From the NCBI GenBank assembly GCA_021785495.1, contig JAJYFB010000005.1:1-53277 (forward strand): a stretch of 53,277 nucleotides of DNA, in the 5' to 3' direction. This document shows positions 9,344-42,568 of this stretch, in pieces. Position 1 is the stretch's first letter. Each line of letters begins with the position of its first letter. Source of the stretch: Acidobacteriota bacterium (GTDB taxonomy: Bacteria > Acidobacteriota > Terriglobia > Terriglobales > Acidobacteriaceae). The position numbers were made by a program, and so were the translations under genes. The notes under the pieces are model-generated. The model was given only the letters and a program-made list of their open reading frames with translations. It ran no database searches and was not told the origin of the DNA.

Positions 9344-9936
9344 GCTCAATGCAACGCCGGCACATGGGCGTGCGAACCCGCTTGGCAAGGTGCTTCGTTA
9401 AGCAGTTCACGTGCCAATGTGCGCAAATGCACCGGCTTTTGTGAATAAAAATTTACAGGCGGTTGTGGAAAGCTGCCTGAACCGGTAAAAATCTTCTCCG
9501 TTGCACGCACGACTTGAACCGGCCGCAAGAGGGGCAGTTTTTCTCTGAAAATAAACAACTTAATCCGCGTATCAGATTTGGACACTCGCAGGCAAGAGGA
9601 AAAATACAGTTTTTACGCAAAAGTTTCTGGCGGAAATCCACAAAATTTTCCACAACAGAGCACAAAAAAGGTCAATCGGCATAGGGGGGAGCGGTTTCCC
9701 GCTCTCCCCGGCCACACCACCCGACAAGCGGGTCCGCATCCGGCGGTTCGAGAAGCTTCCATTCCACTCGTCAAACGGAACCGATATTTCCTGTTTCCTG
9801 GTCGAGCGGGATGACGCCAACCGGTGTTACTCTATCAAGACTATTCTGGATTTGGATCAAGCGTATTTCAATGCGCGGTTGATTGCACGCCCCGACAAGG
9901 AATAGCCCAACCCCTAGAAGGCCCTTCGTAGGCGTT
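9344..9936. other. Intergenic interval without a supported gene
   Basis: 593 bp between lepA and the acyltransferase. Base composition drops in 9420-9670 (A/T-rich, unlike its surroundings), which suggests foreign or regulatory DNA. The right part holds a structured segment described separately. Confidence 0.5.
9675..9760 (-). other. Possible group II intron 3' remnant (domain V/VI-like)
   Basis: Read on the minus strand, a stem around GCCGGATGCGGACCCGC (within 9725-9745) is followed by GGTGGTGTGG and a GC-rich hairpin (9684-9709) ending CCCCTATGCCGAT. This order resembles the 3' end of bacterial group II introns. No reverse transcriptase frame or 5' end is present, so at most it is a fragment. 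Pairing of the stem is imperfect. Confidence 0.35.
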
Positions 9937-11019
9937 ATGCTGAAACAACCCGCACGAAATCATTCCGTTTGTTTGCAACGACCCAACTGGCTTCCCAACT
10001 ATTTTCCCGAACTCGACGGACTGCGCGGACTGGCCATCCTGGCTGTTGTGCTCTACCACTGCAATCCGCGGCTGCGGGGCACGTGGCTCTACCGCGCCTC
10101 GCTCTGGGGATGGGCCGGCGTCATTCTCTTCTTCGTCCTCAGCGGCTTTTTGATTACGTCGATCCTGCTGACGACACGCGACAAACCGCATTACTTCCAC
10201 AACTTTCATGCCCGCAGGGCGTTGCGTATCTGGCCGGTGTATCTTCTGCTGCTGGCCGTGGTCTATCTCAACGCGCCATGGTTTGTCGGCCCCAGCGTGG
10301 GCGATGCCATCCGAACCGCGCCGTGGCTCGCCTACCTTTTTTGCGTGCAGAACCTCTTCCATCTGACGCTGCCACCGTCGCTCGGCCCCACCTGGGCGCT
10401 GGCCATCGAGGAACAGTACTACTTTCTTTGGGCGCCCGTGGTGCGCTGGTTGCGTCGGCCGTGGATGCTTTCCACGCTGCTGGCTTCCCTGCTCGTCGTT
10501 TCGCCCGCGCTGCGCCGTCTTCCTCCGCACTGGCTGACGCCCACGCACACGCTCATCCATCTCGACGGCATCGCCTGGGGCAGTCTGCTGGCCATCGGCA
10601 TCTACACGCTGCCGCTCAGCCGCCGCGCGTGGCTGGGCCTGGGCCTGGGCGGCCTGGCGATGGGCTTTCTCCTGGCAGGCACGCTTGCCGGCGGCACCGC
10701 CTATCTCGATTCCGCGCTGGCCGTGGGCTTCGCCGGCCTGGTGCTGGCGCTGGTCGCCTCAACCGGCGCGCGCAACCCGCTGAGCGCCGCGTTGCGCCGC
10801 GGTCCGGCCGCATTTTATGGGCGCATCAGCTACGGCCTTTACATGATGCACATCTCCGTCTTCATCTACCTCGGCTCCTTCGACGTAGCGATGAATCGCT
10901 ACGGCACGGAGGGCAACCTGGCCATCGTCGCCATGCGTCTGGCCGTCAGCACCGCGGTAGCCACCGTGCTTTGGTACGGTTTTGAGGCGCAGATGCTGAA
11001 GCTGAAACGCTACTTTTGA
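9937..11019 (+). CDS. Acyltransferase 3 family membrane protein (OafA/YrhL-like)
   Basis: About 360 residues with about ten hydrophobic segments. The diagnostic motif FPELDGLRGLAILAVVLYHC lies near the N-terminus, and RALRIWPVYLL in the next loop. These integral inner-membrane enzymes transfer acyl groups to sugars, often on O-antigen or exopolysaccharide. ATG 9937 was chosen; an in-frame ATG at 9883 would add 18 residues. The substrate cannot be inferred because no glycan genes are adjacent. The 3' end overlaps the convergent ATPase gene by 74 bp. Confidence 0.88.
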   Translation: MLKQPARNHSVCLQRPNWLPNYFPELDGLRGLAILAVVLYHCNPRLRGTWLYRASLWGWAGVILFFVLSGFLITSILLTTRDKPHYFHNFHARRALRIWPVYLLLLAVVYLNAPWFVGPSVGDAIRTAPWLAYLFCVQNLFHLTLPPSLGPTWALAIEEQYYFLWAPVVRWLRRPWMLSTLLASLLVVSPALRRLPPHWLTPTHTLIHLDGIAWGSLLAIGIYTLPLSRRAWLGLGLGGLAMGFLLAGTLAGGTAYLDSALAVGFAGLVLALVASTGARNPLSAALRRGPAAFYGRISYGLYMMHISVFIYLGSFDVAMNRYGTEGNLAIVAMRLAVSTAVATVLWYGFEAQMLKLKRYF

Positions 11020-11974
11020 CCTCGTCTTTCCGGTTTGCATCCGGCGCCAGCCGCGCAAAAAGTTTCTGCCAGAGGGCGCGAATCTCGGCGGCGAGGCCGT
11101 CGCCGGCGTACTCGACGATGGTCTTCTCCGCGATCTGCGCCTGTGTAGCCAACCGGTCGTAGCGCACCCGCCCGGCCAGGCTCAGGCCGCGCCTCAGCGC
11201 GTTCTCTTCGATGAGACCGGTCATCGCTTCGTTGAGATCCCACTTGTTGACGCAGACAGCGGCCGGAATGCGGAAGTGCGCCACCAGCGCGGCCACGCGC
11301 TCCATGTCGTGCAGTCCGCTGGGCGTGGGCTCGGTGACGATGAGCGCCAGACTCGCGCCGGTCACCGAGGCGATCACCGGGCAGCCCACGCCCGGCGAGC
11401 CGTCGATCAGCACGAGTGCCGAGCCGCGCTCGCTGGCGATCTCTTTCGCCGTGGTGCGAACTAGGCTGACGAGCTTGCCGGAGTTCTCCTCGGCGGCGCC
11501 GAGCCGGGCATGCACCATGGGGCCGAAGCGCGTTGCCGAGACAAACCACTCGCCGTTGACCGCCGGGTTCATCTGGATGGCCTGCGCCGGGCAGAACCAG
11601 GCGCAGACGCCGCAGCCCTCGCAGGCCAGCGGATCGACGCGACGGGTTGCGGCCCAAACCTGATCGCCCGGAGCCATCGCCTGAATGGCGTGAAAGCGGC
11701 AGAGATCCTCGCACCGGCCGCAGCCGGCGCACAGGCTCGGGTCGATCGCGGCCTGCTTGCCGCCGGTGAAGAACGCACGGCGCTCGATGCGCGGCGCGGC
11801 GACCAGATGCAGATCGGCGGCGTCGACGTCGCAGTCGGCGAGCACGGCGTTTTCCGCCAGCGCGGCAAAGCTGGCCACCAGCGAGGTCTTGCCCGTGCCG
11901 CCCTTGCCGCTGAGAACGACCAGTTCCTTCACCGGCCGCTCGCGCTCGGAATGAATGTGAATGAGTGCATTCAT
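10946..11974 (-). CDS. MinD-like P-loop ATPase with inserted ferredoxin domain (second of pair)
   Basis: 342 residues. Deviant Walker A KGGTGKT (24-30), then a 2[4Fe-4S] ferredoxin insert with cysteines 82/85/88/92 and 118/121/124/128, then the rest of the ParA/MinD fold. Such tandem ATPases occur with NifX/ORP-family proteins and are thought to handle metal clusters. ATG 11974 overlaps the upstream gene stop (ATGA), so the pair is cotranslated. The last 30 or so residues are Ser/Ala/Arg-rich, lie beyond the family core and overlap the convergent acyltransferase gene. It matches the DVU2103/2104-type proteins of the Desulfovibrio ORP cluster in architecture. Confidence 0.9.
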   Translation of the reverse strand: MNALIHIHSERERPVKELVVLSGKGGTGKTSLVASFAALAENAVLADCDVDAADLHLVAAPRIERRAFFTGGKQAAIDPSLCAGCGRCEDLCRFHAIQAMAPGDQVWAATRRVDPLACEGCGVCAWFCPAQAIQMNPAVNGEWFVSATRFGPMVHARLGAAEENSGKLVSLVRTTAKEIASERGSALVLIDGSPGVGCPVIASVTGASLALIVTEPTPSGLHDMERVAALVAHFRIPAAVCVNKWDLNEAMTGLIEENALRRGLSLAGRVRYDRLATQAQIAEKTIVEYAGDGLAAEIRALWQKLFARLAPDANRKDEVKSSVSASASAPQNRTKARWLPRC

Positions 11975-12882
11975 CGGCGCGCCGCCTCGCTTTCCGTCCG
12001 AGATTGTTTTCTGTCGGCCGACGACAGGCGATCGAGAACCGCCTCGATGGCCTGCCGGAAAGCGGGCACGGCATCGAGGGCCAGTTCGCCGCGCGAGTAG
12101 GCCTGGGCGACGCGGCGATCATCGGCGATAGCTGCCCAGAGCGGAATGTTTTTCGCTGCGCAAAAGGCGCGCGTCTTCTCTTCGTTTTCGCCAGCGCGAT
12201 TGATCACGGCGGCCATCGGCAGGCCGACGGCCTCCAGCGTCTCGACCGCCAGGCCGAGATCGTTCAGCCCGAAGGGCGTCGGCTCGGCGACGAGCAAAAC
12301 AAGGTCCGCGCCACGCACGCTCTCGATCACCGGGCAGGATGCTCCGGGCGGGCAGTCGAAAATCGCGAGTTCCTCGCCGCCGAGTTCCTCTTTCAACTGG
12401 CGGATCAGCGGCGTGCTCATCGCCTCGCCGATGCGCAGCGTTCCCTGCGCAAAGCGGAGGGGCGCGTCGGCTTCGGCCCGGTCTGCGCCCGCGTGAACCG
12501 AACCGGTTTCGACTACGCCGATCTGCCGCTCGACCTCCGCAATCGCGCCCGGCGGACAGACCCGCGCACAGCCGCCGCAGCCATGGCACAACTCCGGGTA
12601 GACAAGCACCTGCCCGCCGATGCAGACGATGGCGCTGAACTGGCAGATCGCACCGCACTGATCGCAGTGCGTACACTTGCTCTCGTCAACGCGCGGATGC
12701 AGGCGGAGGGCCGCGCGCGAGGCGTCAATGCGCGGCCTGAGGAAGAGATGCCCATTCGGCTCCTCCACGTCGCAATCGAAGTAGGCGACACGCAGGCCGC
12801 GCCTCGCCGCGGCAAGAGCCAGATTGGTGGCGACCGTCGTCTTTCCTGTTCCGCCCTTGCCGCTGGCGATGGCGATTCTCAT
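11971..12882 (-). CDS. MinD-like P-loop ATPase with inserted ferredoxin domain (first of pair)
   Basis: 303 residues starting MRIAIASGKGGTGKTT, a deviant Walker A at the extreme N-terminus. The ferredoxin insert has cysteines 70/73/76/80 and 99/102/105/109 for two [4Fe-4S] clusters. The C-terminal half is ParA-like (PPGASCPVIESVRGAD and VVINRAGEN-type switch segments). ATG 12882 follows an AGGAGG-type site (12899-12904); the longer frame to 12984 would read back through the upstream gene. Middle gene of a three-gene leftward operon; paralogous to the next gene. Confidence 0.92.
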   Translation of the reverse strand: MRIAIASGKGGTGKTTVATNLALAAARRGLRVAYFDCDVEEPNGHLFLRPRIDASRAALRLHPRVDESKCTHCDQCGAICQFSAIVCIGGQVLVYPELCHGCGGCARVCPPGAIAEVERQIGVVETGSVHAGADRAEADAPLRFAQGTLRIGEAMSTPLIRQLKEELGGEELAIFDCPPGASCPVIESVRGADLVLLVAEPTPFGLNDLGLAVETLEAVGLPMAAVINRAGENEEKTRAFCAAKNIPLWAAIADDRRVAQAYSRGELALDAVPAFRQAIEAVLDRLSSADRKQSRTESEAARR

Positions 12883-12889
12883 GATTTTC

Positions 12890-13336
12890 CTACCGGCCTC
12901 CTTGTTGTCGCCGTCTTCGTTTCCCTTGCGCGCCGGGCGCAGCGGAACGCGCGCAGCCGGACGTGAATCCCGCCGGCCACGCATCCTCGCCGCCTCGCCA
13001 ACGGCGGCAGCCGGGCATGGCCCACTGCGGCTCGGCGAGCCTTCCGTTGAGGCAGGCGGCCAGCACCTCGTCCACCGTTCCGCAGAGAAAAGCGGCCACG
13101 CGCATCCCGGCGCCCTGAATGCGAAGCTGCAACGGCGCCGAGATCGCTCCGCAGATCAGCAGGTCCACGCCGCTGTCGGCCAGTTCTGCGGCGCGATCGG
13201 CCGGCGCAATCTCCGCCAGGGATTTCTCCTCGCGCCGCGCGATGCGGCCCGCTTCCACGTCGACCAGCAGCAACTGCCGGGCGGCATCGAAGACCGGCGC
13301 GATGCGCCCTTGCCAATGTGGAATGGCGATCCTCAT
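12890..13336 (-). CDS. NifX/NafY-family metal-cluster-binding protein, leader gene of the left operon
   Basis: 148 residues beginning MRIAIPHWQGRIAPVFDAA, the RNase H-like dinitrogenase iron-molybdenum cofactor fold (MTH1175/NifX/NifB C-terminal family). The C-terminal 45 residues after the fold are Arg/Gly-rich with two cysteines (PGCRRW, SGCARS). No nif structural genes are present, so a role in nitrogen fixation is not implied. It lies 7 bp upstream of the first ATPase. A sigma-54-type promoter lies directly in front of the ATG. Confidence 0.85.
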   Translation of the reverse strand: MRIAIPHWQGRIAPVFDAARQLLLVDVEAGRIARREEKSLAEIAPADRAAELADSGVDLLICGAISAPLQLRIQGAGMRVAAFLCGTVDEVLAACLNGRLAEPQWAMPGCRRWRGGEDAWPAGFTSGCARSAAPGAQGKRRRRQQGGR

Positions 13337-13349
13337 CGCCAGAGAGGGT

Positions 13350-13366
13350 TGCATCTGACGGGCCAA
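13350..13366 (-). promoter_or_regulatory. Sigma-54 (-24/-12) promoter of the left operon
   Basis: Minus-strand TTGGCCCGTCAGATGCA matches the consensus YTGGCACGN4TTGCW at 15 of 17 positions, with the obligatory GG and GC 12 bases apart (-24 at 13363, -12 at 13351). The implied transcript start is about 13339, only about 3 nt before the ATG, so the message would be nearly leaderless. That is the one awkward feature of this call. Confidence 0.65.
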
Positions 13367-13421
13367 ATGCTCGAATGAGCGCAAAAACACAAAGTTACGA
13401 ACTCATCGAGTCACGCAATCC

Positions 13422-13465
13422 TTGCAAAATGCAATTCCTGTGCGCGCGATCACGGCAAAATGCAA
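13422..13465. promoter_or_regulatory. Paired activator-site candidates (TTGCA-N3-TGCAA)
   Basis: A perfect site TTGCAAAATGCAA at 13422-13434 and a partial one (GGCAAAATGCAA core) at 13453-13465, 31 bp apart, about three helical turns. They lie 59 and 90 bp upstream of the leftward -24 element and within the leader of the sigma-54 activator gene. The same motif pair recurs before the right operon. Confidence 0.65.
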
Positions 13466-13491
13466 TGCAATGCGCGCATCTTCGGATCAGG

Positions 13492-14859
13492 ATGAATGCG
13501 CGCGCTCCTTCGAACTCCGTTGCACCGGGCCGAACCCCTCGTGCAACGATCGGCGAGCCGGTCGACGACCCGATCCTCGACTCGATCAACGAGGGCGTCT
13601 TTACCGTCGATCACCAGTGGCGCATCACGGCCTTCAACCACGCCGCCGAGCGGATCACCGGCGTGCGCCGCCAGGATGCGCTCGGCCGCCGCTGCTCGGA
13701 GGTCTTCCGGGCCAATATCTGCGAGGAGAACTGCGCGCTGCGGCGCACGCTCGCCAGCGGCAAGCCCGTCGTGGGCGCAACGGCGCGCATCATCGGCGTC
13801 GATGGCAGCCAGATTCCCATCCGCCTCTCGACGGCGCTTTTGCGCAAGCCCGGTGGCGAGGTTGCCGGCGGCGTCGAAACCTTTCAAGACCTCACGGCCG
13901 TCGAGCAACTGCGCAAGGAACTGGAGGCGCGGTACACCTTCGAGGACATCGTCGGCCGCAGCGCGGCCATGCAGAGCCTCTTCGAGATTCTGCCGCAGAT
14001 CGCCGCCAGCGCAAGCACGGTGCTGATCGAAGGCGAGAGCGGCACCGGCAAGGAACTTTTCGCCCGCGCCATCCATCACCTTTCGCCGCGCGCCAAAAAG
14101 CGCTTTATCGCCGTCAACTGCGCTGCCCTGCCCGACGCGCTGCTCGAATCCGAACTCTTCGGCTACAAGGCCGGCGCCTTTACCGACGCGAAAAAAGACA
14201 AGCCGGGCCGCTTCGCGCTGGCCGATGGCGGCACGATCTTTCTCGACGAGATTGGCGACATTTCGGCGGCCCTGCAGGTGCGGCTGCTGCGCGTTCTGCA
14301 GGAGCGGTACGTCGAGCCGCTGGGGGCCACCGAACCGGTCAACGTCAACGTTCGCGTCGTCGCGGCCACCAACAAAAATCTCGCGCAACTGGTTCAGGAG
14401 GGCAAGTTCCGCGAGGATCTCTTTTACCGGATTCGCGTCATCCACCTGCGCATTCCGCCGCTACGGGAACGGCGCGAAGACCTGCCGCTGCTGGTCGATC
14501 ACTTGGTGGAAAAATTCAATCGTCTGCAAGAAAAGGAGATCGTCGGCGTTTCGTCCGCAGTGATGGCCCGCCTGATGGATCACAACTATCCGGGTAACGT
14601 CCGCGAGCTGGAGAACATTCTGGAGCAGGCATTCGTGCTCTGCCGCGGCGGCCTGATCGAACTGGAGCATCTGCCGCTGGAGCTTCGGCCCGCGAATCGG
14701 AATGCTGCCGCTTCGGCGTCGGCAACCAATCTGCGCGCGGCCCAGCGGCAGATGATCGAAGCGGCGCTCCAGCGCAACCAAGGCAATCGCCGCCAGGCGG
14801 CCCGTGAGCTGGGCATCGATCCGAGCACGCTCTACCGGCGGCTGAAAGCCGCGGACTGA
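13492..14859 (+). CDS. Sigma-54-dependent transcriptional activator (PAS-AAA+-Fis)
   Basis: 455 residues from ATG 13492. A PAS domain (about 25-140) contains the cluster Cys68, Cys77, Cys81, suggesting redox or Fe-S sensing. The AAA+ domain has Walker A GESGTGKE (181-188) and GAFTDA (228-233) in place of the usual GAFTGA loop that contacts sigma-54. A Fis-type helix-turn-helix ends the protein (RRQAARELGIDPSTLYRRLK). It sits between two operons of metal-cluster proteins and very probably controls both. The frame is open to 13318 but that would cover the promoter region; the start remains slightly uncertain. Its position and type match the ORP regulator DVU2106 of Desulfovibrio. Confidence 0.92.
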   Translation: MNARAPSNSVAPGRTPRATIGEPVDDPILDSINEGVFTVDHQWRITAFNHAAERITGVRRQDALGRRCSEVFRANICEENCALRRTLASGKPVVGATARIIGVDGSQIPIRLSTALLRKPGGEVAGGVETFQDLTAVEQLRKELEARYTFEDIVGRSAAMQSLFEILPQIAASASTVLIEGESGTGKELFARAIHHLSPRAKKRFIAVNCAALPDALLESELFGYKAGAFTDAKKDKPGRFALADGGTIFLDEIGDISAALQVRLLRVLQERYVEPLGATEPVNVNVRVVAATNKNLAQLVQEGKFREDLFYRIRVIHLRIPPLRERREDLPLLVDHLVEKFNRLQEKEIVGVSSAVMARLMDHNYPGNVRELENILEQAFVLCRGGLIELEHLPLELRPANRNAAASASATNLRAAQRQMIEAALQRNQGNRRQAARELGIDPSTLYRRLKAAD

Positions 14860-30029: not shown

Positions 30030-31376
30030 CTATGGCTTTGTGTGCAGTTCGTCGAGCCAGTCTTGCATGTGGCCAAGCGAGCGCAGCAGGTCGAGTCGCG
30101 TCTTGCTCAGATCGAGGCCGGCTTCGAGCGATTCGATGTACTTCTGCCGCTCGCCGATGAGCGCCCGCTGTTTGGCCGCGGGCGAAAGCTGCGGCGTAGC
30201 ATTCGGTCCCGCGCTTGAGCCGTTGCCCAACTCCATTTCAGCCGTCACGCTTTTGAGCTGTTCGGCGGCGATCTGCTGCTTCAGGCGGGCAATCTCGGCC
30301 CGCGTATCCAGTTCGCGCAGGCTCGCGTTCAAACGCAGCATCTCCACATCGTTCTGCTGCCGCGCCTCGTCGGCTTCGACACGCGCGCGCACGGCCTCGG
30401 CGGCCGATTCGCGCGACTTGGCGTGGAGGCCCATGTTGAAGAACGGGACGGTGATATTGAAGCCACTGCTGAAATTGTTCACGGGAAGATGATTGCCGAC
30501 GAAGTATTGGCCGATGCTGTTCAAAAGCTGTGTATCGCGGTTGTATTGCGCGCCGAAGCTGATCTCCGGCAGCAGCCAGAGACGCTGTTCGTCGCCCTTG
30601 GCCTGACGCAGCCGCGAGGCAGCCAGGGCTTGCGCCGCCATGACTCCCAGCGGCTGGCGTGGCTCGATGTCGCCCGTTACGGCAGGGATTTCCGGAATAC
30701 TGGCGCGATCAGGCGCCATGGCTCCGGCGGGCAGTCCGGTCAGCACCGCCAGTTGTTGCGCGAGCGTAGCGGCGCGGGTTTCCAGGTGCAGACGAGCCAG
30801 CTTGATTTGCGCGGCCGCGAGTTGCGCTTCGAGCAGCGCGCTGAGCGGATCGACGCCTGCCTCGGCGCGTTGCTGCTCGATGGCGACCAGCCGCGCCGCA
30901 TCCTGTTCCTGCTCGTGCGCGGCGGCCAGCTCGCGGTTGACCGTGTCCAGTTCGATGTAGGCCGTCGCGGCGTCGAGGGCCGCCTGCTCGCGCGCGTCCT
31001 TGAGCGCAAGTTCCGCCGATTGAAGGCCTGCGCGCGCGGCGTGGATGTACTGAAACTGCGGCATCGAGAAGACCATCGACTCAACGGTGCTGTCCCAAAT
31101 CGTGGGCATCGCGCCCGTGAAGCCGACTTCGGGGAAAGCCGGCAGCCCCGAGCCGAAGGAGATCGAGGGGATGAAGACATCGCGACTTTCCTGCAGCCGG
31201 GCTGTGGCCTTGCGCACGTCGGCTTCGGCCAGCCGCACGGAAGAGCTGTTCTGCCGGGCCAGGTCCACCACCGTGGCGAGCGAGACCGGCGTCTGCGCCT
31301 GAACGGCAGGAGATGCAAGCGCTGCCGCGGCCAGGATCGCCAGCCACGTTTTTCCCGTTTTCCTTGCGTTTCTCAC
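30030..31376 (-). CDS. TolC-family outer-membrane efflux channel
   Basis: About 448 residues. Signal peptide (ending SPAVQAQ), then two repeats of the outer membrane efflux protein domain with long coiled-coil helices (LAEADVRKATARLQES; RESAAEAVRARVEADEARQQ). GTG 31376 follows GGAG by 6 bases and lies 13 bp after the upstream stop; the longer frame overlaps that gene. Third gene of a minus-strand operon with an adaptor and a TPR lipoprotein. Confidence 0.9.
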   Translation of the reverse strand: MRNARKTGKTWLAILAAAALASPAVQAQTPVSLATVVDLARQNSSSVRLAEADVRKATARLQESRDVFIPSISFGSGLPAFPEVGFTGAMPTIWDSTVESMVFSMPQFQYIHAARAGLQSAELALKDAREQAALDAATAYIELDTVNRELAAAHEQEQDAARLVAIEQQRAEAGVDPLSALLEAQLAAAQIKLARLHLETRAATLAQQLAVLTGLPAGAMAPDRASIPEIPAVTGDIEPRQPLGVMAAQALAASRLRQAKGDEQRLWLLPEISFGAQYNRDTQLLNSIGQYFVGNHLPVNNFSSGFNITVPFFNMGLHAKSRESAAEAVRARVEADEARQQNDVEMLRLNASLRELDTRAEIARLKQQIAAEQLKSVTAEMELGNGSSAGPNATPQLSPAAKQRALIGERQKYIESLEAGLDLSKTRLDLLRSLGHMQDWLDELHTKP

Positions 31377-31389
31377 GCTCAACTCCGCC

Positions 31390-32379
31390 TCACCGGTTGG
31401 CATCCTGCGCCGGGTTGAATTCACGCGCCATCGCCGCCGCCGCGGCGAACTCCTGTCGCGCTCCGGCTGCGTCGCCGAGCTGCTGCTCGAGCCGCGCCAG
31501 CCGGATGCGCGCCAGAAACGCGGGAGCTTCGTCGCTCTTGGACGAACCGGCCAGATAGCCTGTCAGCATCTTTGCGGCCAGCGCCGGGTTCCGATGAGCC
31601 GCAATCAAAACGCCCGCTCCGTCGTAGAGCGCCACGCCGGGACGGCAATCGTGCGCGGCAGCGGCGGCGCATTGCTTGACGGAGGACTCCATCTCGCTCC
31701 AGCGCTGCCGCTGTCGATAAAAATTGGCCAGGATCGACCACTGCTCGGCCGGGTGCGGACTGGCCGCAATCGCCTGTTTATAGCTGCGCTCGGCCGCGCC
31801 AAAGTCTTTGCGCACGAGGGCGATGTTGCCGCGCAGTTCCCAGGCTTTGGCGGGATTCACCTTGTCCAGTTGCGCGGCGATGGCCTCGGCCTTATCGAGG
31901 CCGCCGCCCACGATGCCCGGCGCGTCGGTGTCGAACTCGCCCAGATCGGCGAGCGCGTCGGCGTTACGCGGATCGAGCCGAACGGCCTGCTCAAACTCCT
32001 GGCGCGTGCGTTTGCCGAGCGAGTAGGCAGTCAGAAACGACGCATGACCGGCCTTTTGGCCGAGCGCCCGTCCCAGCCACAGATGGTAGCCGGAGCGGTT
32101 CGGCTCCAGGCGAACCGCCTGTTCGCAGGCGGCGACGGCCGCGTCCCATTGCTGCAGGGTGAAGCGCACGCGGCAAAGCAGGTTTTGCGCCTCGGCTGCG
32201 CCCGGCCCCTGGTTAGGCAGCGGCGCAAGCAGGCTCAACGCCCGGTCCGCCTCGCCGGCCTGGAGCGCCTCGTTCGCCTGTCGGAGCGCAGTCGAGGAAA
32301 TCTGCGCGCACGCGGAGACGGACGCTGCCAGCATCACCAGCGCTGCCGCGCCAAGCACCGCTCGCGTTAAACCTCTCAC
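31390..32379 (-). CDS. TPR-repeat lipoprotein
   Basis: 329 residues from GTG 32379, which overlaps the upstream stop (GTGA) and has AAGGAAG nearby. The hydrophobic N-terminus ends LAASVSAC, a plausible lipobox. Then about six TPR-like units, for example LLCRVRFTLQQWDAAVAACEQAVRLEP and LVRKDFGAAERSYKQAIAAS. Probably an envelope scaffold. Encoded between the adaptor and the channel genes, so it may assist pump assembly; no direct evidence. Confidence 0.85.
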   Translation of the reverse strand: MRGLTRAVLGAAALVMLAASVSACAQISSTALRQANEALQAGEADRALSLLAPLPNQGPGAAEAQNLLCRVRFTLQQWDAAVAACEQAVRLEPNRSGYHLWLGRALGQKAGHASFLTAYSLGKRTRQEFEQAVRLDPRNADALADLGEFDTDAPGIVGGGLDKAEAIAAQLDKVNPAKAWELRGNIALVRKDFGAAERSYKQAIAASPHPAEQWSILANFYRQRQRWSEMESSVKQCAAAAAHDCRPGVALYDGAGVLIAAHRNPALAAKMLTGYLAGSSKSDEAPAFLARIRLARLEQQLGDAAGARQEFAAAAAMAREFNPAQDANR

Positions 32380-33614
32380 CGTACTTCCTTGATCGGCAGG
32401 CCCTCCTGCAAGGGTTGCCCGTCGACGGTTCCCGTGGCGACGAGATCGCCCGCCTGGAGACCGGAAAGAATCGGCGCCTGGGTCAGTGTCGGCGAGCCGA
32501 TGGCGACATTCACACGCTGCAATTGGCCGTCCACAACCTTGTAGACAAAGTACGTACCGTTCTGTTCGTGGAGCGCCTCGCGCGGCATGGTCAGCGCATT
32601 CGGCTGACTGGCGATGGTCACCGTCAGCGTAACATTCGTGTCCGGCAGCAGACCGTCGTCGCCGCCGTCCAAATCGACCAGCGCCTCGCCGACATTGCGC
32701 GTCGTGTACGTGACGACGGTGACCGGCAACCGCGCAAGATGTCCACGCCAAACACGATTCGGCTTGGCGTCCCAACGGATCGACACCGGCTGGCCAAGAG
32801 CCAGACGGCCCAGGTCTGGTTCATCGAAGTAGGCGCGAACCCGTTCCTTGTGCAGGTCGGCCATCTCCACCAGAAGTTTTCCGGCTTCGGCGTACCCCGA
32901 AGGCGCGGCGTCCAGCGTATAAATCGTTCCCGCAACCGGCGCGACGATCGTGGTTTGCGCCTCGACGCGCCGTGCGGCGTCGAGCGAAGCCCTGGCCTCG
33001 TTGAGGGCCGACTGAGCGCGGGCGATCTCGGCGGGAGAATAACGATGCTGCGCGCTCTGCTCGGCGGCGTGAAGACTGTCCTCCGCCGAGGCCAGTCGCG
33101 ATTGCGCCGCAGCGACTTCGCTCGGCGCGGCGGCTCCGGTCGCAGCCAGCCGGTTCAGCGCGTCGAGATCGTGCTTGGCCTGGTCGAGCGTCAGCCGGTC
33201 CTGCGCGATCTCCGCAGTCGCAGCCTGCCGCTCGGCGAGTGTCCCATTGTGCATCGCCGCATCCTCGGCCGCCTGCGCCGCCTTGACCGCGCTTTCGGCG
33301 CTGGCCACCTGCGCCCGCGCGGCCACGTCGTCCAGCTTCAGAATCGTTTTTCCGGCCGAAACCTGTTCGCCTTCCTGCGCATAGACGGCTTGCACCGTGG
33401 TGGCAAGCGGGCTGTAAAACTGGTAGTTTCGAACCGGCTCCACGCGGCCGTTCGTACTGACCGTATTGCTCAGTGGGGTGTAATCCACCCGCGCCACGCG
33501 CACCGGCAGCCGGTCCCGCAAAAGAAATCGCGCCGCCAGAAACACGGCGATCAGAGCGACCGCCGCACCGATCCAGAGCCATTTGCGGTCCATTTGCCTT
33601 CTTGCTTGAGCCAT
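32376..33614 (-). CDS. HlyD/RND-type periplasmic adaptor (membrane fusion protein)
   Basis: 412 residues. One N-terminal membrane helix (about 11-30), lipoyl half-domains flanking a long alpha-helical hairpin (about 95-225, AQVASAESAVKAAQAAEDAAM...), then beta-barrel domains. Connects an inner-membrane transporter to TolC. No ABC or RND transporter gene is adjacent, so its partner is encoded elsewhere or the operon is incomplete. Confidence 0.9.
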   Translation of the reverse strand: MAQARRQMDRKWLWIGAAVALIAVFLAARFLLRDRLPVRVARVDYTPLSNTVSTNGRVEPVRNYQFYSPLATTVQAVYAQEGEQVSAGKTILKLDDVAARAQVASAESAVKAAQAAEDAAMHNGTLAERQAATAEIAQDRLTLDQAKHDLDALNRLAATGAAAPSEVAAAQSRLASAEDSLHAAEQSAQHRYSPAEIARAQSALNEARASLDAARRVEAQTTIVAPVAGTIYTLDAAPSGYAEAGKLLVEMADLHKERVRAYFDEPDLGRLALGQPVSIRWDAKPNRVWRGHLARLPVTVVTYTTRNVGEALVDLDGGDDGLLPDTNVTLTVTIASQPNALTMPREALHEQNGTYFVYKVVDGQLQRVNVAIGSPTLTQAPILSGLQAGDLVATGTVDGQPLQEGLPIKEVR

Positions 33615-33802: not shown

Positions 33803-36616
33803 TCATGCGCTGTGCTGCCGCCGCAGCGCGGGATCGATAGCCCGCAGGGCAGCGGCCCGGTCGAAGGGCGCGCCGAGAAATTTTTCCAGCCTCTGCGCCG
33901 TGGCGGCAGCGTCAGCCAAAGCCTCGTCATAGCGCACCGCAAGCACCGGAATCTCCGGATGCCGCTCCAGCCATTGCTGAATCTGCACAAGCTGCCCGGC
34001 GTAGGTTCGCCGCAGACGCCCAGACTCAAGCGCCGCGCCTTTGCGGCCCAGCCGCTCGAGCATGGCCCGCTGCGAGGCCGCCACTTCGTTCAGATCGCGG
34101 TGCATGAAGACGATGCGATAGCGATGCCCCGGCGGCAGATAGGGCACGAGGTGCGCAACGATCTTGACGGCCTTGCCGCGCGCCTCGGCCAGCCAACTGG
34201 AATCGGTGTGCAGTTGGGTCGCCTTCTCGTGCTCGAAGTAGCCGCGCGGATTGTCGCTGTCGGGGGTGCGGCGGCCGTCGGTGAAGGGCGTCAAACCGGC
34301 CGCGGCCAGCATCTGCATCATCATCGAGGTGCCGCTGCGCGGCAGGCCGGTCACAATCACGCACTCGTCCGTCCGGCTGGCCGGCGCGCCGCCGCGTTCG
34401 AAGGCCGGCAATCCGGCGGCGGGTTTTTCCATTTTCGCCGCGGACCGGGCGGACGCCGCGGCGGCCTCGGCCATGCGCCGCGTGCGCTGCTCTCTGGCCA
34501 ACCGCTTCAGTTCGTCGGCGCGGGCCATGTGCATGGCGCCCTCGCCGATCCGTTCCCGGTCGCGCGCCAGAATCCGCCCCAGGGCGCTGTGCGCCGCGGC
34601 AAGATCGGGCGCCAATTGGATGGCGCGCCGGAAAGCCTGCTCAGCCTCAGCCTTTTCTCCCATCCGCAACAGGGCCATGCCGAGCAGATGATGCAGCGCC
34701 GGCTGCGCATAGACCAGCGAAAGCGACTCGATGGCGCGGCTGGCGGCCATCGCATAGTTTTTGGCCTGCAAATGGATTTGCGCCTCCAGCCGCATCGCCT
34801 CCCAGTTGTCGCGATCCTTGCGCCGAGCCTTGTCCAGGCAGTCGAGCGCCCGGTCGTAGTCCTTGAGGGCCGCGAAACCGCGTCCGAGAAAGAGCATGAC
34901 GCCTTCGGGCAGGCGTCTTTTGCCGGCAATCTCTTCGAGCAGCGCCCGCGCCTGCTGGCGGTGGGCTGAACGGGGCTGGTGGAGGGCCAGTTGGCAGTGC
35001 ATCAACAGTCGCGATTCGGCGAATCCGCCAGCTTTTTCGGCAAGCTGACGCCGCTCGAAGACCTCGCGGCGCTCGCCCGGCCGCTCCTCGCGCTCGCCTG
35101 GCTCGGGCAGCGGATTTTCCTTGAGGCGGCGCTTCAGTTCCTCGGCCGCGCGGGGCGCGAACCCGGCAGCCGCCTTGTCGAAGGCGTCGAGCACGCGAGC
35201 GGCTTCGGCGCAGTCGCCCATCTGCAGGAGATAGCTGAACAGGTGCATGGAAAAACGGCCCTGTTCGGGCTCCTGCGCCGCCAGTTCGCGCAACGTCACG
35301 ATGGCCAGGTCGGGCCGCCCGGCGTCGGCCTGCGCGCGGGCCAGGTTATAGCGAAGTTCGATCATCGCTTCTTCGACCGTACGCCGTTCGTCCTCTCCCG
35401 GCGGCGCCACATAGCCCAGATCGACAAGCTGCTTGAGCGATTCGGCGGCGGCCGCGCCGTCGTACGCATCTTCGTTCCGGTGGCGGCCGGCGTCGCCCTC
35501 GATCGCCTCCCAGCTCTCGACCGTCTCCACGGGGCGCTCGTCGCCGAAGGCGTTCAGCAGCACCTTGCCGTCCATGTCCAGGCCGACGGGAATGCCCAGC
35601 AGGTGCAGCGCCGTCGGCGTCACGTCCAGAACGCTGGCGCCGAAGATCTGCTCGCCCTGCCTGACGCCCGGCGCCCTCATGCAGAAGATGCCGAAGGAGC
35701 GATGCTCGACGGCCGGGCCCGCATTTTCGGCCGGAATATAATCCGGCAGCAGCGCGTCGGAGTGAAAACCGTGGTCGCTGATCAGGATCAGGCCGCACTC
35801 CGGCCCTGCCAACTGAAGCAGCCGGCCGAGCATGGTGTCGTGATAGCGATAGGCATTCTCGACGACCGGGGCGAAGATCTCCGCGGTGGAATCGTTTTTG
35901 CGGCGCGGCTTGCCCGCGTGATAGCTCATGAAGCGGTGGGAAAAGTGATCGATGCCGGCATAGAAGATCGCCGCCAGGTCCCACTCCTCGGTGGCCATCA
36001 ACTCCGTCGCCGCGCAGTGCATGCTGACCGTTTCTGCGATGATGCCGGCCAGATCGTTCACGCTTCTGTCCTTCTCTTGATCGACCTCGGCCCAGCGCGG
36101 AGCGAACATGCTCAGAATCTCGCCCGTCAGCTCGGAGGGATGAACGCGCATCTCGGCCAGCCGTGCGGCGATCGAAGGCGGATAGACCGTTCCCGGCGGC
36201 ATCGGCGCGCCCGCCGGCTGTTCGCCCTTGAGCGGAAACAGATCGGAGACCATAGCGCCATGGATCGGCTCGGCCGGGTGCGATGGCCACCAGCCGGCGA
36301 CGATGCTGCGCCGGCCCTTCTGATGGAGAATGTTCCAGATCGCCTTGGTGCGCCGGCCCAGGTTGGTCACCGGCCGCACCGAAAGGCCGTCCGGCGCCGG
36401 CTCCATGAAGCCCAGAATTCCGTGCTTGACCGGACGCACGCCGGTCGCAATCGAGGTCCAGACCATGGGGCTGAACGGCGGCTGAATCGTCGCCAGGTTG
36501 CCGCGCACGCCGCCGGCCAGAATTGAGGCCAGCACAGGCATCTCGCCTTTGGCCAGCAAGGGATCGATCACCTTCCAGTCGGCCGCATCCCATCCCACCA
36601 GCAATAACTTTTTCAA
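33803..36616 (-). CDS. Phosphodiesterase/AlkP-fold – TPR – sulfotransferase fusion protein
   Basis: 937 residues from TTG 36616 (GAGGAA just upstream). Residues 1 to about 400: type I phosphodiesterase/nucleotide pyrophosphatase fold, with metal-ligand motifs GWDAADW (Asp10), MVWTSIATG...KHGI, YAGIDHFSH and ISDHGFH. About 420-720: TPR-like helices (ALLRMGEKAEAEQAFRRAIQLAP). About 750-937: sulfotransferase domain with PAPS 5'-phosphosulfate loop TGLPRSGTSMM and 3'-phosphate motif HRDLNEVAASQ. No signal peptide. All three domains look intact. Substrate unknown; a joint role in sulfated or phosphorylated metabolite turnover is inference. Confidence 0.85.
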   Translation of the reverse strand: MKKLLLVGWDAADWKVIDPLLAKGEMPVLASILAGGVRGNLATIQPPFSPMVWTSIATGVRPVKHGILGFMEPAPDGLSVRPVTNLGRRTKAIWNILHQKGRRSIVAGWWPSHPAEPIHGAMVSDLFPLKGEQPAGAPMPPGTVYPPSIAARLAEMRVHPSELTGEILSMFAPRWAEVDQEKDRSVNDLAGIIAETVSMHCAATELMATEEWDLAAIFYAGIDHFSHRFMSYHAGKPRRKNDSTAEIFAPVVENAYRYHDTMLGRLLQLAGPECGLILISDHGFHSDALLPDYIPAENAGPAVEHRSFGIFCMRAPGVRQGEQIFGASVLDVTPTALHLLGIPVGLDMDGKVLLNAFGDERPVETVESWEAIEGDAGRHRNEDAYDGAAAAESLKQLVDLGYVAPPGEDERRTVEEAMIELRYNLARAQADAGRPDLAIVTLRELAAQEPEQGRFSMHLFSYLLQMGDCAEAARVLDAFDKAAAGFAPRAAEELKRRLKENPLPEPGEREERPGERREVFERRQLAEKAGGFAESRLLMHCQLALHQPRSAHRQQARALLEEIAGKRRLPEGVMLFLGRGFAALKDYDRALDCLDKARRKDRDNWEAMRLEAQIHLQAKNYAMAASRAIESLSLVYAQPALHHLLGMALLRMGEKAEAEQAFRRAIQLAPDLAAAHSALGRILARDRERIGEGAMHMARADELKRLAREQRTRRMAEAAAASARSAAKMEKPAAGLPAFERGGAPASRTDECVIVTGLPRSGTSMMMQMLAAAGLTPFTDGRRTPDSDNPRGYFEHEKATQLHTDSSWLAEARGKAVKIVAHLVPYLPPGHRYRIVFMHRDLNEVAASQRAMLERLGRKGAALESGRLRRTYAGQLVQIQQWLERHPEIPVLAVRYDEALADAAATAQRLEKFLGAPFDRAAALRAIDPALRRQHSA

Positions 36617-36907
36617 TGGTTCCTCGCTCGGGCTATCGATCCGTCTTCAAAGGCTCGTATCGCGTTTGCGCTTCCCTCTCAGCATGGAAGCAGAAACGTT
36701 TGGGGAAGAACGTCGCATCTTCTCGAAGCCGGATCGATCAAGAAATCAATTGTCGTCCTAAGCATATCTTGCCGGCGCAAACCAAGCAGAAAAAACATCC
36801 GCGCCGACAAATCTCCGCAACGAAAATGCACATCGAGAATGCGCTGCAAAATTTCCGGAACCGGACCAGTCACAGCGGCGTATAACTGCTTTGTGGAGGC
36901 AATGGCC

Positions 36908-38765: not shown

Positions 38766-39131
38766 TCACAACTTGTACGGAATGCGAACGCCGGGTGAGG
38801 AAGCTGGAAAATCGCGCGAATTGCGCGTCAACAGCACGCGACCATGCGTCTGCGCTGTCGCCTGGATCATGGCGTCGGGCAACTTGAGCCTGCCGAGGCG
38901 TCGAATCTCGACGGCGCGCGCGGCAATCTCCAGGGTAAGTGGCAGGAGCTGGAAGTTCAGAAGAAAGGTGCGCACATCGTCGTCGACCAACGGCGCGCCT
39001 ACAAGAATCTCCATCCATGTGACGATGCTGATGGCGCGATCGGCGTGCCGACCGCACTCGGCGCGAGCTTGCGGAATGCCTCTCAGGTAGTCAATGAGAA
39101 TGCAGGTATCGAAGAGAACCGGGGAATTCAC
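38766..39131 (-). CDS. vapC: PIN-domain RNase toxin (VapC-like)
   Basis: 121 residues; acidic active-site positions in LFDTCILIDYLRG, WMEILVG, LKLPDAMIQA and LLTRNSRDF. VapC toxins cleave specific RNAs. GTG 39131 overlaps the antitoxin stop (GTGA). Confidence 0.88.
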   Translation of the reverse strand: MNSPVLFDTCILIDYLRGIPQARAECGRHADRAISIVTWMEILVGAPLVDDDVRTFLLNFQLLPLTLEIAARAVEIRRLGRLKLPDAMIQATAQTHGRVLLTRNSRDFPASSPGVRIPYKL

Positions 39132-39343
39132 CACTCGCCGCGCACTCTCTGCTGATAGGCCAGTCCGTCCTCTTTCATCGCCGTCCACGCGCCAAAGGCC
39201 GCATGATCCATCTTCTGCCGGTAGGGCGTAAGCGAGGTGCGGATGGCCTGCCGGATCAATTCGGCGCGGGAGATCTCCCTGCGTTTGCTGACCCGGTCGA
39301 GCAGTTGCAAATCGACCTGCGGAATATCGACAAGAATGCGCAT
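39128..39343 (-). CDS. vapB: Ribbon-helix-helix antitoxin (VapB/CopG-like)
   Basis: 71 residues, MRILVDIPQVDLQLLDRVSK...SRAELIRQAIRTSL, a clear RHH DNA-binding fold followed by a tail (FGAWTAMKEDGLAYQQRVRGEW) that should bind the toxin. ATG 39343 follows GAGAGG. Autoregulation is likely through the inverted repeat just upstream. Confidence 0.88.
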   Translation of the reverse strand: MRILVDIPQVDLQLLDRVSKRREISRAELIRQAIRTSLTPYRQKMDHAAFGAWTAMKEDGLAYQQRVRGEW

Positions 39344-39354
39344 GACGACCTCTC

Positions 39355-39373
39355 GATATATCAAGAGTATATC
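39355..39373. promoter_or_regulatory. Inverted repeat operator candidate of vapBC
   Basis: GATATA-N7-TATATC, a perfect 6-bp inverted repeat 11 bp upstream of the vapB start codon, in an A/T-rich patch within GC-rich DNA. A normal place for RHH antitoxin binding. Confidence 0.55.
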
Positions 39374-39486
39374 ACTCGTTTCATGCAAGTAATATACCTG
39401 CTCACCCGACAGACCGGCGATGATTCGGAGGCGGCCATTCCGAACCAAACGATTGCGATCAAGCAGGCTTGGCCAATCGGCCGCGC

Positions 39487-40317: not shown

Positions 40318-41535
40318 GTGAGAGCGAGGCAAAGTTGCGTGCGCTGGGGAGCGGTGGGCATTCTGTGGCTGGCTGCGTCGCTGTTGGCGCAGGCCGCGAC
40401 GGTCGACACCAACCCGATGAATTACGACCCGCAGGTGCGCGCGGCCTACGATCGCTTTTACAACCTCGACTACCCGGCCGCCGTGGCCGAGTTCGAGCGG
40501 TTTCACGCCGAGCATCCGGGCGATCCCCAGGCGACAGCCTATCTCGTGAATGCGCTGATCTTTCAGGAACTCTACCGGCAGGATCTGCTCGACACCACGT
40601 TTTACGCCAACGACGGATTTTTATCCGGGCGTCACGCCACAGAGGAGAATCCGGCCACGCGCGACCGCATCTTCGCCCTGGCCGACGAGACAGTGCGTGA
40701 GGCCGACTGGCGCTTGAGCCAGAATCCTCGCGATGTGGACGCGCTCTTTGCCCGCGCCTGGGTTCGCAGCCTGCGCTGCACCTACGTCGCCATGGTCGAG
40801 CGGTCCTTTGGCGCGGGATTCCGGCTGGCGATCAAAGCCAAGGACGACGCCAATCGCGCCCTGGCGATCGATCCCCATTACGTGGACGCCAAGCTGATTG
40901 CGGGCGTCTATCAATACGTCGTCGGCGCGCTGCCCTGGCCCTTCAAGCTGATGATCGGCTTTGCGGGAATCACAGGATCGAAGTCCACCGGGCTGGCCAT
41001 GCTGCAAGACGACGGCCAGCGCGGCGTCATCACCCGCGTCGAGGCGCGCACGGCGATGGCGCTGTTTTTGCGGCGCGAGGCGCGTTACAAAGAGGCCATC
41101 GCCGTGGTGCGCACGTTGCAGAGCCAGTATCCGCGGAATTTTCTTTTCTGCTTGGAAGAGGCCAACCTGCAAAAGGACGCCGGCGAGGGAATGGTCGCCG
41201 TGGAAGCCTATCGCCAGTTGCTGGCCAGGGCCGCACGGCCGGGGTACTTTGCCTCGTCGAAACTGGAACTGGCCGAATTCGGCCTGGGCGACGCGCTGCG
41301 CGGCCAGCGCCACGACGGCGAGGCCGCCGAGGCGTATGAGCGAGCCGCCGAGGCCGCCGGCGTGGGGCCGGAACTGAAGATTCGCTCGCTGCTCGCTGCC
41401 GGCCAGTGCCGCGACCTGAGTGGACAGCGCACCCTGGCCGTGCGCGATTACCGCGAAGCACTCGATGCGGGGCCGAACACCTCCCGCGCGGGCGAGGCGC
41501 GCAAGTATCTGCGCTCGCCCTACCGAGGAAATTGA
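40318..41535 (+). CDS. Secreted TPR-containing protein, unknown function
   Basis: 405 residues from GTG 40318, six bases after a perfect AAGGAG. Signal peptide (ending LLAQAATV). TPR-like repeats begin at FYNLDYPAAVAEFERFHAEHPGD and recur to the end (ALFLRREARYKEAIAVVRTLQSQYP). The type is common in Acidobacteriota and of unknown role. The frame is open far upstream, antisense to pyrF, which is not coding. Confidence 0.82.
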   Translation: MRARQSCVRWGAVGILWLAASLLAQAATVDTNPMNYDPQVRAAYDRFYNLDYPAAVAEFERFHAEHPGDPQATAYLVNALIFQELYRQDLLDTTFYANDGFLSGRHATEENPATRDRIFALADETVREADWRLSQNPRDVDALFARAWVRSLRCTYVAMVERSFGAGFRLAIKAKDDANRALAIDPHYVDAKLIAGVYQYVVGALPWPFKLMIGFAGITGSKSTGLAMLQDDGQRGVITRVEARTAMALFLRREARYKEAIAVVRTLQSQYPRNFLFCLEEANLQKDAGEGMVAVEAYRQLLARAARPGYFASSKLELAEFGLGDALRGQRHDGEAAEAYERAAEAAGVGPELKIRSLLAAGQCRDLSGQRTLAVRDYREALDAGPNTSRAGEARKYLRSPYRGN

Positions 41536-41626
41536 TCGGCCTTGCGCAAATTCTTGCAGCGCGTCAGGACCATGCGCCGGCGCGGCTTTGCGCCGCGCAT
41601 ATACTGAACTCGTACTTCCTCGCTCT

Positions 41627-42568
41627 ATGCGTCCAGAGTTGACCCGAGCTTCGGAGCTGTTGCGCGACCGCTCGCCGGAGGCGGTCGCCCAGGCGATTGG
41701 CCTGCTGCAAAACACGGTCTTTTCCTTCAGCATGAAAATGTGCGGCCATCGTGAGGATGCCGAGGACACGGCGCAGGAGGTGATCTTCCGCTCGCTCCGG
41801 CACCTGCACAAACTGCAAGAGCCTTCGGCTCTCGCCGCATGGCTCTACACCGTCACGCGCAACCGCTGCCGCCGCATGCGCGGCGCAGCCGCCGATGCGC
41901 CCGAGCGCAGGCTCTCGCTCGACGAGCTGATGCCCGGCGAGGCGGAACTGGGCCGGCTGCTGCTCGATGCTGGCGACTCGCCCGAAGACCGGCTGCTCGC
42001 CAGCGAGGAACACCGCTTGCTGCACCGGGCGCTGCTGCAGATTCCCGCGCCGCTGCGGCTGGTCCTCGTTCTGCATGACATGGAGGATCTCGAAACCGAA
42101 CTGGTTGCGCGCATTCTCGATCTGCAGGCCGGAACCGTGCGCGTGCGGCTGCACCGGGCGCGGCTGGCGCTGCGCAAACAGATCGCGCTGCTGCTTCAAG
42201 GCGAAAAAAAAGGCCGCGCCGCAACGGCCAGAAAGAGCGCGGCCCTCGAAAAAACGGGCTCAGCCGCACGACAGCCAAAGCAGCCCGTCGCGCGGCCGCG
42301 CGAGTGCCGCGAACTCTTCGCCAGCCTTTCGGAGTATCTTGACGGAAAGATTGAGCCGGAAAGCTGCGAAAAAATGCGCGCGCATATCGAAAGATGCCCG
42401 GCCTGCGTGGCGTTTCTGCGCGATCTGCGCGCCGCTATCGATCGCTGCCGCGCGATGAATCTGGCCTGCGATCCGGCCGTGGCCGAGCGCTTGCAGGCAA
42501 TGCTCACCCGCGAATATCTGCGCATGACCGGCAAGGCCGATGCGGCGACAAACAGACGCACGCGGTAG
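41627..42568 (+). CDS. Sigma factor with C-terminal zinc-finger (anti-sigma-like) domain
   Basis: 313 residues. Region 2 (CGHREDAEDTAQEVIFRSLRHL, AWLYTVTRNRCRRMRG), region 4 (LLQIPAPLRLVLVLHDMEDLETELVARIL...TVRVRLHRARLALRK), a linker rich in Lys/Ala/Gln, then a zf-HC2-like module (CRELFASLSEYLDGKIEPESCEKM, HIERCPAC, about 230-280). The last module is what normally forms a separate anti-sigma factor. ECF factors with such built-in tails can be metal- or redox-gated. ATG 41627 matches the domain start; ribosome site weak. Confidence 0.85.
   Translation: MRPELTRASELLRDRSPEAVAQAIGLLQNTVFSFSMKMCGHREDAEDTAQEVIFRSLRHLHKLQEPSALAAWLYTVTRNRCRRMRGAAADAPERRLSLDELMPGEAELGRLLLDAGDSPEDRLLASEEHRLLHRALLQIPAPLRLVLVLHDMEDLETELVARILDLQAGTVRVRLHRARLALRKQIALLLQGEKKGRAATARKSAALEKTGSAARQPKQPVARPRECRELFASLSEYLDGKIEPESCEKMRAHIERCPACVAFLRDLRAAIDRCRAMNLACDPAVAERLQAMLTREYLRMTGKADAATNRRTR

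Follow-up and report, generated by a model that had tools for sequence, protein, structure and literature searches.

A predicted hydrolase-TPR-sulfotransferase fusion protein from an Acidobacteriota genome and its genetic link to a family of sorted proteins

Gene and domain layout

The stretch of DNA analysed here, hereafter the window, comprises 53,277 nucleotides of an Acidobacteriota bacterium (assembly GCA_021785495.1, contig JAJYFB010000005.1, positions 1 to 53,277). On its minus strand, at 33803..36616, a single gene encodes a protein of 937 residues in which a hydrolase domain of the alkaline phosphatase (AlkP) superfamily, a tetratricopeptide repeat (TPR) superhelix and a sulfotransferase domain of the type using 3'-phosphoadenosine 5'-phosphosulfate (PAPS) are joined. 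This protein belongs to a fusion family that is real, conserved and apparently undescribed, and that has a new genetic partner. A sequence-only reading had placed a cytosolic chain of these three parts, with the motifs of both enzymes intact, at the same coordinates without naming a strand. The gene begins with TTG, four bases downstream of a GAGGA recognised by eye as a likely ribosome-binding site (36621..36625, minus strand), and ends with a stop codon at 33803-33805; full-length homologues were found.

Residues 1-410 (35387..36616, minus strand) were assigned to the nucleotide pyrophosphatase/phosphodiesterase (NPP) type of the AlkP superfamily based on Pfam family PF01663 (residues 4-285, 91.2 bits against a cut-off of 23), VIA-align and residue conservation. 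The TPR superhelix follows at residues 410-725 (34442..35389, minus strand), where several Pfam TPR families match at about 420-690, some of the TPR models staying below cut-off, and where the structural model contains helical hairpins. After a linker of low model confidence at residues 726-744 (34385..34441, minus strand; predicted local distance difference test score, pLDDT, below 50 at 728-734), residues 745-937 (33806..34384, minus strand) make up the PAPS-type sulfotransferase domain. This part matches PF13469 (53.9 bits against a cut-off of 27) and PF00685 (26.6 bits against 22) at residues 752-920 and contains the motif GLPRSGTS (757-764), R840 and S848. Among related sulfotransferase domains, 28 out of 28 match PF13469 at E<=0.01.

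The joining of three domains in one chain was thus confirmed by Pfam, by an AlphaFold2 model and by the homologues. An N-terminal hydrophobic leader is not visible by eye (no signal-peptide program was run), which agrees with the proposed cytosolic location.

Structural model and active sites

Structure prediction had been suggested as a check. It resulted in an AlphaFold2 model (73 sequences) with a mean pLDDT of 92.6 and a predicted template modelling score (pTM) of 0.81, in which the poorly modelled linker segment 728-734 precedes the last domain. From sequence and model, the N-terminal domain is predicted to have the AlkP/NPP fold. Using VIA-align, where rows with Z scores within 1 of each other count as tied, the domain aligns with Xac NPP (2gsn) at a Z of 25.7 and a root-mean-square deviation (rmsd) of 2.8 over 269 positions, and with ENPP7 at a Z of 26.4 and an rmsd of 2.8 over 272 positions; the phosphomonoesterase PafA is equally close (Z 26.3). 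Sequence identity to ENPP-type phosphodiesterases and Xac NPP is 15-23%, at Z scores of about 25-26.

The residues D10, D223, H227, D281, H282 and H305 are identical in 81 out of 81 fused proteins and are taken to be the ligands of two metals, the model itself containing no metal. Ser49, likewise Ser in 81/81, aligns with a Thr of 2gsn in an alignment with Xac NPP and phosphonoacetate hydrolase. This Thr is presumably the NPP nucleophile; other AlkP-superfamily enzymes use Ser as nucleophile. The adjoining Thr at position 54 is conserved in only 75/81. Thus, the fusion shares the fold and the predicted two-metal ligand set with the ENPP family and Xac NPP, but differs by a Ser in place of Thr at the nucleophile position, by the lack of a visible export signal and by the attached TPR and sulfotransferase parts.

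The sulfotransferase part was assigned by sequence only, the fold comparison being taken up by the first two domains. Its residues G757, P759, R760, G762, T763, S764, R840 and S848 are identical in 81/81 fused proteins, with L758 kept in 79 and S761 in 77 of them, so that the motifs of both enzymes are indeed intact. GLPRSGTS is taken to be the 5' phosphosulfate loop, and R840 and S848 the 3'-phosphate-binding Arg and Ser. Profile matches to solved structures comprise SULT1-type enzymes (E 2.9e-5) and, for the loop only, protein-tyrosine sulfotransferases (E 0.001-0.002). Like other PAPS-dependent sulfotransferases (Sulfotransfer_3, Sulfotransfer_1; SULT1, TPST), the domain has the phosphosulfate loop and the 3'-phosphate-binding Arg/Ser; it differs in being short (about 190 residues), in having an invariant set of its own (D780, R783, D786, N789, E795 and K818) and in being joined to other domains. 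The phosphodiesterase or pyrophosphatase activity and the sulfate-transfer activity of the fusion are putative.

Distribution of the fusion

A scan of named genomes gave at least 519 stretches encoding a relative. The best 80 loci were picked by similarity to two fused proteins, and the fusion lies in one open reading frame (ORF) in 78 of these 80, a figure which, given this selection, is no frequency. In all 80 loci the match runs from residue 1-3 to at least residue 919. In L091 and L110 (loci are numbered with L, genomes with G and contigs with C), the sulfotransferase is encoded by a gene of its own, which lies 6 and 30 bases, respectively, beyond the final sense codon of the gene before it. 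Since three-part homologues occur in a single ORF in 78/80 loci and the key residues are identical in 81/81 proteins, the fusion cannot be a product of chance or of a wrong reading frame. Binning errors do not explain the architecture either: although metagenome bins make up most of the records, those of L064 (Desulfoluna spongiiphila AA1) and L121 (Cerasicoccus frondis NBRC 105381) carry strain names in their titles.

Within the window's genus, 18 of the 24 genomes have matches, and these centre on the TPR region, with no hydrolase match among those listed for the 24 genomes. The gene is thus sporadic in its genus. The widest of these matches, in G001, reaches residue 818 but runs through four stop codons. 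For the own phylum (396 genomes), where the listed matches alone decide whether a genome counts as a fusion carrier, one further genome, G410 (locus L013), has the full fusion among these matches. In a tree of the 81 fused proteins, the protein of the window stands beside that of L042 (an Acidobacteriia bin, 65% identity) in a mostly acidobacterial subclade. With 10 taxonomic groups, 22 changes are needed on this tree, compared to 51.3 on average after shuffling, the minimum being 9. The distribution is clustered but patchy, compatible with transfer though no proof of it. Viral contigs gave 95 pattern matches and no relatives. Among plasmids, 53 records had a match, none covering 80% of the query; the 40 matches shown cover at most 45% of it, from the hydrolase end, and the annotated ones are named 'alkaline phosphatase family protein'.

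A domain-architecture search had also been suggested, with a widespread architecture of assigned function, or missing key active-site residues, as what would refute the reading. The fusion is indeed widespread, whereas no description or assigned function of a hydrolase-TPR-sulfotransferase architecture was found in the literature searched, which did not extend to subscription papers.

Some loci contain additional relatives of the fusion. L065 has two copies (8001-10847 and 11999-14788) belonging to different subclades of the tree, and in L099 the fusion is directly followed by a further PF01663-TPR protein (11003-13075, 57.9 bits). In four Planctomycetota loci (L054, L055, L060 and L061), an ORF of about 540-560 aa with the look, by eye, of a degenerate hydrolase lies after the fusion; for the one of L055, Pfam finds TPR only. 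This second ORF perhaps encodes a pseudoenzyme subunit.

The partner family

Genes in flanks of up to 8 kb were clustered by single linkage. As the crude gene caller frequently picked antisense ORFs where the DNA is GC-rich, the resulting counts are lower bounds. The main neighbour cluster consists of 58 genes in 47/80 loci, 54 of the 58 being on the fusion's strand and most within 0.7 kb; six other clusters present in at least four loci comprise 4-7 loci each. The proteins of the main cluster, referred to as partners, have a median length of 273 aa (217-325 for the middle four fifths). They consist of an N-terminal leader with a recurrent motif around K/R-L-x-S-Y/L-x-A, a beta-rich core in which the motifs YGW and (W/Y)AY hardly vary, and a sorting signal at the C-terminus. 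Among 39 partners, Pfam identified a PEP-CTERM tail in 18, a type IX secretion system (T9SS) tail in seven and an IPTL-CTERM tail in five, and such sorting tails are the only Pfam families matched by at least five of the 39. NCBIfam matches are also sorting tails or PEP-CTERM/T9SS protein families, with full-length models below cut-off in the one member inspected.

With a profile built from 39 members (E<=1e-4), a partner was found within 1.5 kb of the fusion in 57/80 loci, on the same strand in 54 of the 57. Of these 57 loci, 38 contributed to the profile and 19 come from the 41 non-contributing ones; a search with a lenient E-value raised the count to 63/80. The density of matches is 71 in 0.21 Mb near the fusion vs 11 in the other 0.67 Mb of flanks. 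The link between fusion and partner holds across the differing sorting tails (PEP-CTERM, T9SS and IPTL-CTERM), and in L042, L043, L050 and L075 the fusion gene starts where the partner ends. Of the 80 loci, 33 are not represented in the neighbour cluster; in 27 of the 33 corresponding genomes the partner family is matched at E<=1e-3, in two cases weakly. The weak match G434:C245:1-99 probably stems from a partner that the contig edge truncates directly ahead of the L044 fusion, leaving its end; the contig numbers agree.

A model of the L042 partner was obtained with a pLDDT of 82 and a pTM of 0.70. Foldseek gave no match to it at E<=0.001, and the best VIA-align scores (BfrB, Z 6.3, rmsd 4.9, 128 aligned; HmuY-type, Z 5.4-5.5) are too weak to be used for naming the fold. 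In L116, four partner-family genes stand in a row after one fusion gene (6162-10018). Just upstream of the fusion, L065, L073 and L088 carry a member of another family of about 170-205 aa (neighbour cluster 6, 4/80 loci), acetyltransferase-like by eye, for which Pfam found no match in the L065 member.

Co-occurrence across genomes

In the own phylum, a partner at E<=1e-6 is present in 3/396 genomes: the fusion carriers G000 (the window's genome, on which the comparison was centred) and G410, and G413 with a weak match (1.2e-8) in an ORF of 1479 aa. This corresponds to 2/2 genomes listed with the full fusion vs 1/394 others. Among relatives, the partner occurs in 2/41 genomes, G000 and G039. 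In the Verrucomicrobiota sample, it was found in 8/9 hydrolase-TPR genomes, i.e. those with a match over about 480 or more N-terminal positions, vs 16/185 others (Fisher p 1.4e-7, phylogeny ignored). G466, the centre genome of this sample, had been chosen as a fusion carrier already known to have a partner match; without it, the count is 7/8 (Fisher p 1.0e-6, phylogeny ignored). Seven other matched Verrucomicrobiota genomes, which have the sulfotransferase only (G514 also a short piece), were not counted.

The window's genome contains one partner gene at E<=1, P0003 (C54:178-834, E 5.9e-28), encoding 221 aa from an ATG and carrying the PEP-CTERM motif PF07589 (22.0 bits against a cut-off of 20.7). 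Together with an exosortase (E 3e-76), this gene makes the genome a user of the PEP-CTERM/exosortase system, of which the fusion is not thereby a defined part. An APS kinase (PF01583, E 8e-64) would supply PAPS, but as this enzyme also serves assimilation, it lends weak support. Elsewhere, an APS kinase gene directly follows the fusion in L074 (E 1.7e-67) and follows the partner in G410/L126 (E 1.7e-44). Of 12 loci with stand-alone sulfotransferase relatives, where the gene caller often chose antisense ORFs, only L193 (G094) is informative; here the relative shares a fragment with an ATP sulfurylase-APS kinase fusion.

Variants of the fusion

Hydrolase relatives were surveyed at 30 loci, which gave 25 ORFs, 13 of them with the recognised motif; some of the loci without the motif are antisense ORFs. 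One of the 13 is the fusion L013, and the other 12 out of 12 have no sulfotransferase motif. In L164 (G600), the hydrolase site is intact, the sulfotransferase is missing the part with the P-loop, and two partners lie upstream. In L166 (G479, contig C9), an intact hydrolase lacks the sulfotransferase domain altogether and a partner lies downstream. In L167, a sound fusion and a split pair lie in tandem and are accompanied by partners. L168 and L180 are degenerate hydrolase relatives beside partner genes in which both activities are lost, and L171 was recognised by eye only, a hydrolase profile match being absent.

Proposed function and alternatives

The function of the fusion is unproven, and the proposal made here starts from its architecture, its intact residues, its patchy spread, its linkage to the partner and the partner, exosortase and APS kinase genes of the window's genome. 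Tentatively, and with somewhat less than even confidence, the fusion may be regarded as an enzyme with two catalytic heads that works in the cytosol and is dedicated to the modification of proteins displayed on the surface, or of the glycan or lipid carrying them. Prior to export, its TPR superhelix would keep hold of the exported partner or of a complex built around this partner. Sulfate from PAPS would be passed to an acceptor by the C-terminal domain, and a phosphodiester or similar ester on this target would be cleaved by the NPP-type hydrolase, either ahead of sulfation or regardless of it. The substrate would be the partner itself or its anchor, and this order of events is likewise conjectural. 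A bolder version, in which a horizontally spread system of about ten phyla recognises one exported family, perhaps by its leader, and sulfates it prior to export whatever the sorting machine (exosortase, IPTL-type or T9SS), must be considered unlikely as a whole. To our knowledge, sulfation of proteins or glycans on bacterial surfaces has been described in few cases. The fusion and its surface-protein neighbour suggest an undescribed way of chemically modifying bacterial surfaces. As it is genetically tied to a single family of sorted surface proteins in phyla that use different sorting machines, the fusion is a testable candidate for a general pathway, and the link is also a first functional lead for a partner family made up of PEP-CTERM, IPTL-CTERM and T9SS proteins.

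According to the sequence-only reading, the hydrolase might process 3'-phosphoadenosine 5'-phosphate (PAP), the by-product of sulfation by the same chain. This expectation was not borne out. Although both active sites are intact in 81/81 fused proteins and no variant examined pairs a dead hydrolase with a sound sulfotransferase, the hydrolase persists alongside a broken sulfotransferase (L164), in the absence of one (L166) and in 12/12 other motif-bearing ORFs, which have no sulfotransferase motif, so it has a role independent of own-chain PAP. Furthermore, PAP is a phosphomonoester usually cleared by CysQ-type enzymes of another fold, and the top fold matches are mostly phosphodiesterases, even though the phosphomonoesterase PafA is among them. 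Clearance of PAP is therefore the least probable of the explanations considered, although PAP may be one of the substrates of the hydrolase. An escort or quality-control function of the hydrolase-TPR part in partner export, with catalysis being secondary, seems very unlikely as well, but it is favoured by L127 (G039). In this locus a hydrolase-TPR gene without metal ligands or sulfotransferase keeps its partner about 30 bp upstream, which weighs against the proposed modifying enzyme, as the partner link may not need catalysis. L168 and L180 point in the same direction; with the partner retained in all three, the pairing can outlive both activities. The recurrent motif in the partner leader would also suit an escort, whereas the seven catalytic positions identical in 81/81 fused proteins would be needless for one. 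A coordinate loss of both activities was considered and dropped, there being too few cases: L127, L168 and L180 lost both, and L164 and L166 only the sulfotransferase.

A more serious alternative, possible if somewhat unlikely, is that the substrate is a small molecule, a lipid or an exopolysaccharide precursor, e.g. the anchor of the sorted proteins, with the partner merely sharing the surface structure and the operon. NPP-type hydrolases mostly act on small phosphodiesters, and the SULT1-type enzymes that best match the sulfotransferase part are small-molecule enzymes. Against this alternative, a protein-docking TPR array of about 300 residues would be unusual for a small-molecule enzyme, and the fusion keeps to a single partner family regardless of the sorting tail. 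Nor was any glycosyltransferase seen by eye in the six other neighbour clusters of at least four loci. Exosortase/PEP-CTERM systems, on the other hand, accompany exopolysaccharide, as described in the available passages of PMC1569441, and the conserved Tyr in the partner does not come and go with the sulfotransferase. This residue, at position 183, is Tyr in 36/39 partners and acidic-flanked in 25/36, vs 70/389 for all Tyr of the partners, and was considered as a sulfation site, which should then disappear together with the sulfotransferase. It is replaced by Trp in both partners of L164, where the sulfotransferase is broken, and is absent in L180, which has a degenerate hydrolase and no sulfotransferase. 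However, Trp is also present in two partners of L167, next to a sound sulfotransferase, and the Tyr is retained in L127, L168 and L171 without a sound one. The candidate was therefore dropped.

Besides L127, several points weigh against a modifying enzyme dedicated to the partner. The behaviour of the Tyr means that no acceptor residue is indicated. The partner profile was made from the partners of fusions and so favours matches there, and the Fisher values ignore phylogeny. No partner match at E<=1e-3 was found in 6/33 genomes outside the neighbour cluster, nor in G606, one of the nine hydrolase-TPR genomes of the Verrucomicrobiota, and the 16/185 other genomes of that phylum have the partner family without the fusion. 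In the window's genome, the partner gene is unlinked, being on another contig than the fusion. In the fusion-free Verrucomicrobiota loci L170 and L177, the neighbour of a partner is a protein of about 790-840 aa from the subtilase family (PF00082); by size and position, L173, L176 and L181 show the same arrangement, Pfam having been run on L170 and L177. The partner-subtilase pair may constitute a second system that shares this core domain.

Comparison with known systems

In the available parts of the literature, RaxST, RaxX and RaxAB of Xanthomonas resemble the fusion in that a bacterial sulfotransferase is genetically linked to an exported product. RaxX is, according to the accessible text of PMC6637879, a 60-residue precursor, whereas the partner is typically 217-325 aa long and beta-rich with C-terminal sorting signals. 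No RaxAB-like peptide transporter or membrane-fusion family was found beside the fusion in at least four of the 80 loci with the crude gene caller, apart from an ABC ATPase-like neighbour cluster present in 7/80 loci at distances of up to 7 kb.

The fusion can also be compared to PEP-CTERM/exosortase sorting, as its partners carry PEP-CTERM tails in many lineages and its own genome has an exosortase. However, it also goes with T9SS and IPTL tails and is thus not tied to exosortase. The passages of PMC1569441 at hand state that TPR domains may guide covalent modification; in them, the word 'phosphatase' is absent and those with 'sulf' concern no sulfotransferase.

From what is accessible of Kamneva 2015 (PMC4452313), the locus of secondary SecA, HlyD and M50 has a similar list of phyla, and HlyD-type and outer-membrane genes lie downstream of the fusion in the window too. 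Families of this kind are absent from the recurrent neighbours of the fusion, however, and a link to this locus was rejected, G000 having a single SecA_DEAD match. A further SecA_DEAD protein (ORF of about 630-860 aa), like the secondary SecA in the accessible part of Kamneva et al. 2015 (PMC4452313), was observed in 10/33 fusion genomes (G434, G435, G439, G444, G446, G454, G456, G458, G463 and G464), an observation confounded by phylum. It is not found in G000, G039 and G410, and among 42 controls only G061 possibly has it, in pieces.

Neighbourhood of the fusion in the window

Based on Pfam, the fusion is followed 188 bp downstream by a gene for an HlyD-type membrane-fusion protein (32376..33614, minus strand); further on come a TPR gene (within 31390-32775) and a gene for an outer-membrane efflux protein (30030-31424). 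Since the window's neighbours are in none of the clusters of at least four loci, these downstream genes are probably not part of the system. A RaxSTAB-like operon made up of the HlyD-type and outer-membrane genes was likewise discarded, as these genes do not recur in relatives.

Elsewhere in the window, the ORF at 41420-42568 (plus strand) encodes a sigma-70-type factor with a C-terminal zf-HC2 domain, resembling a fusion of sigma and anti-sigma factors. At 38766-39448 (minus strand), a PIN-domain gene is preceded by a short ORF (39128-39448, by eye), and the two are possibly a toxin-antitoxin pair.

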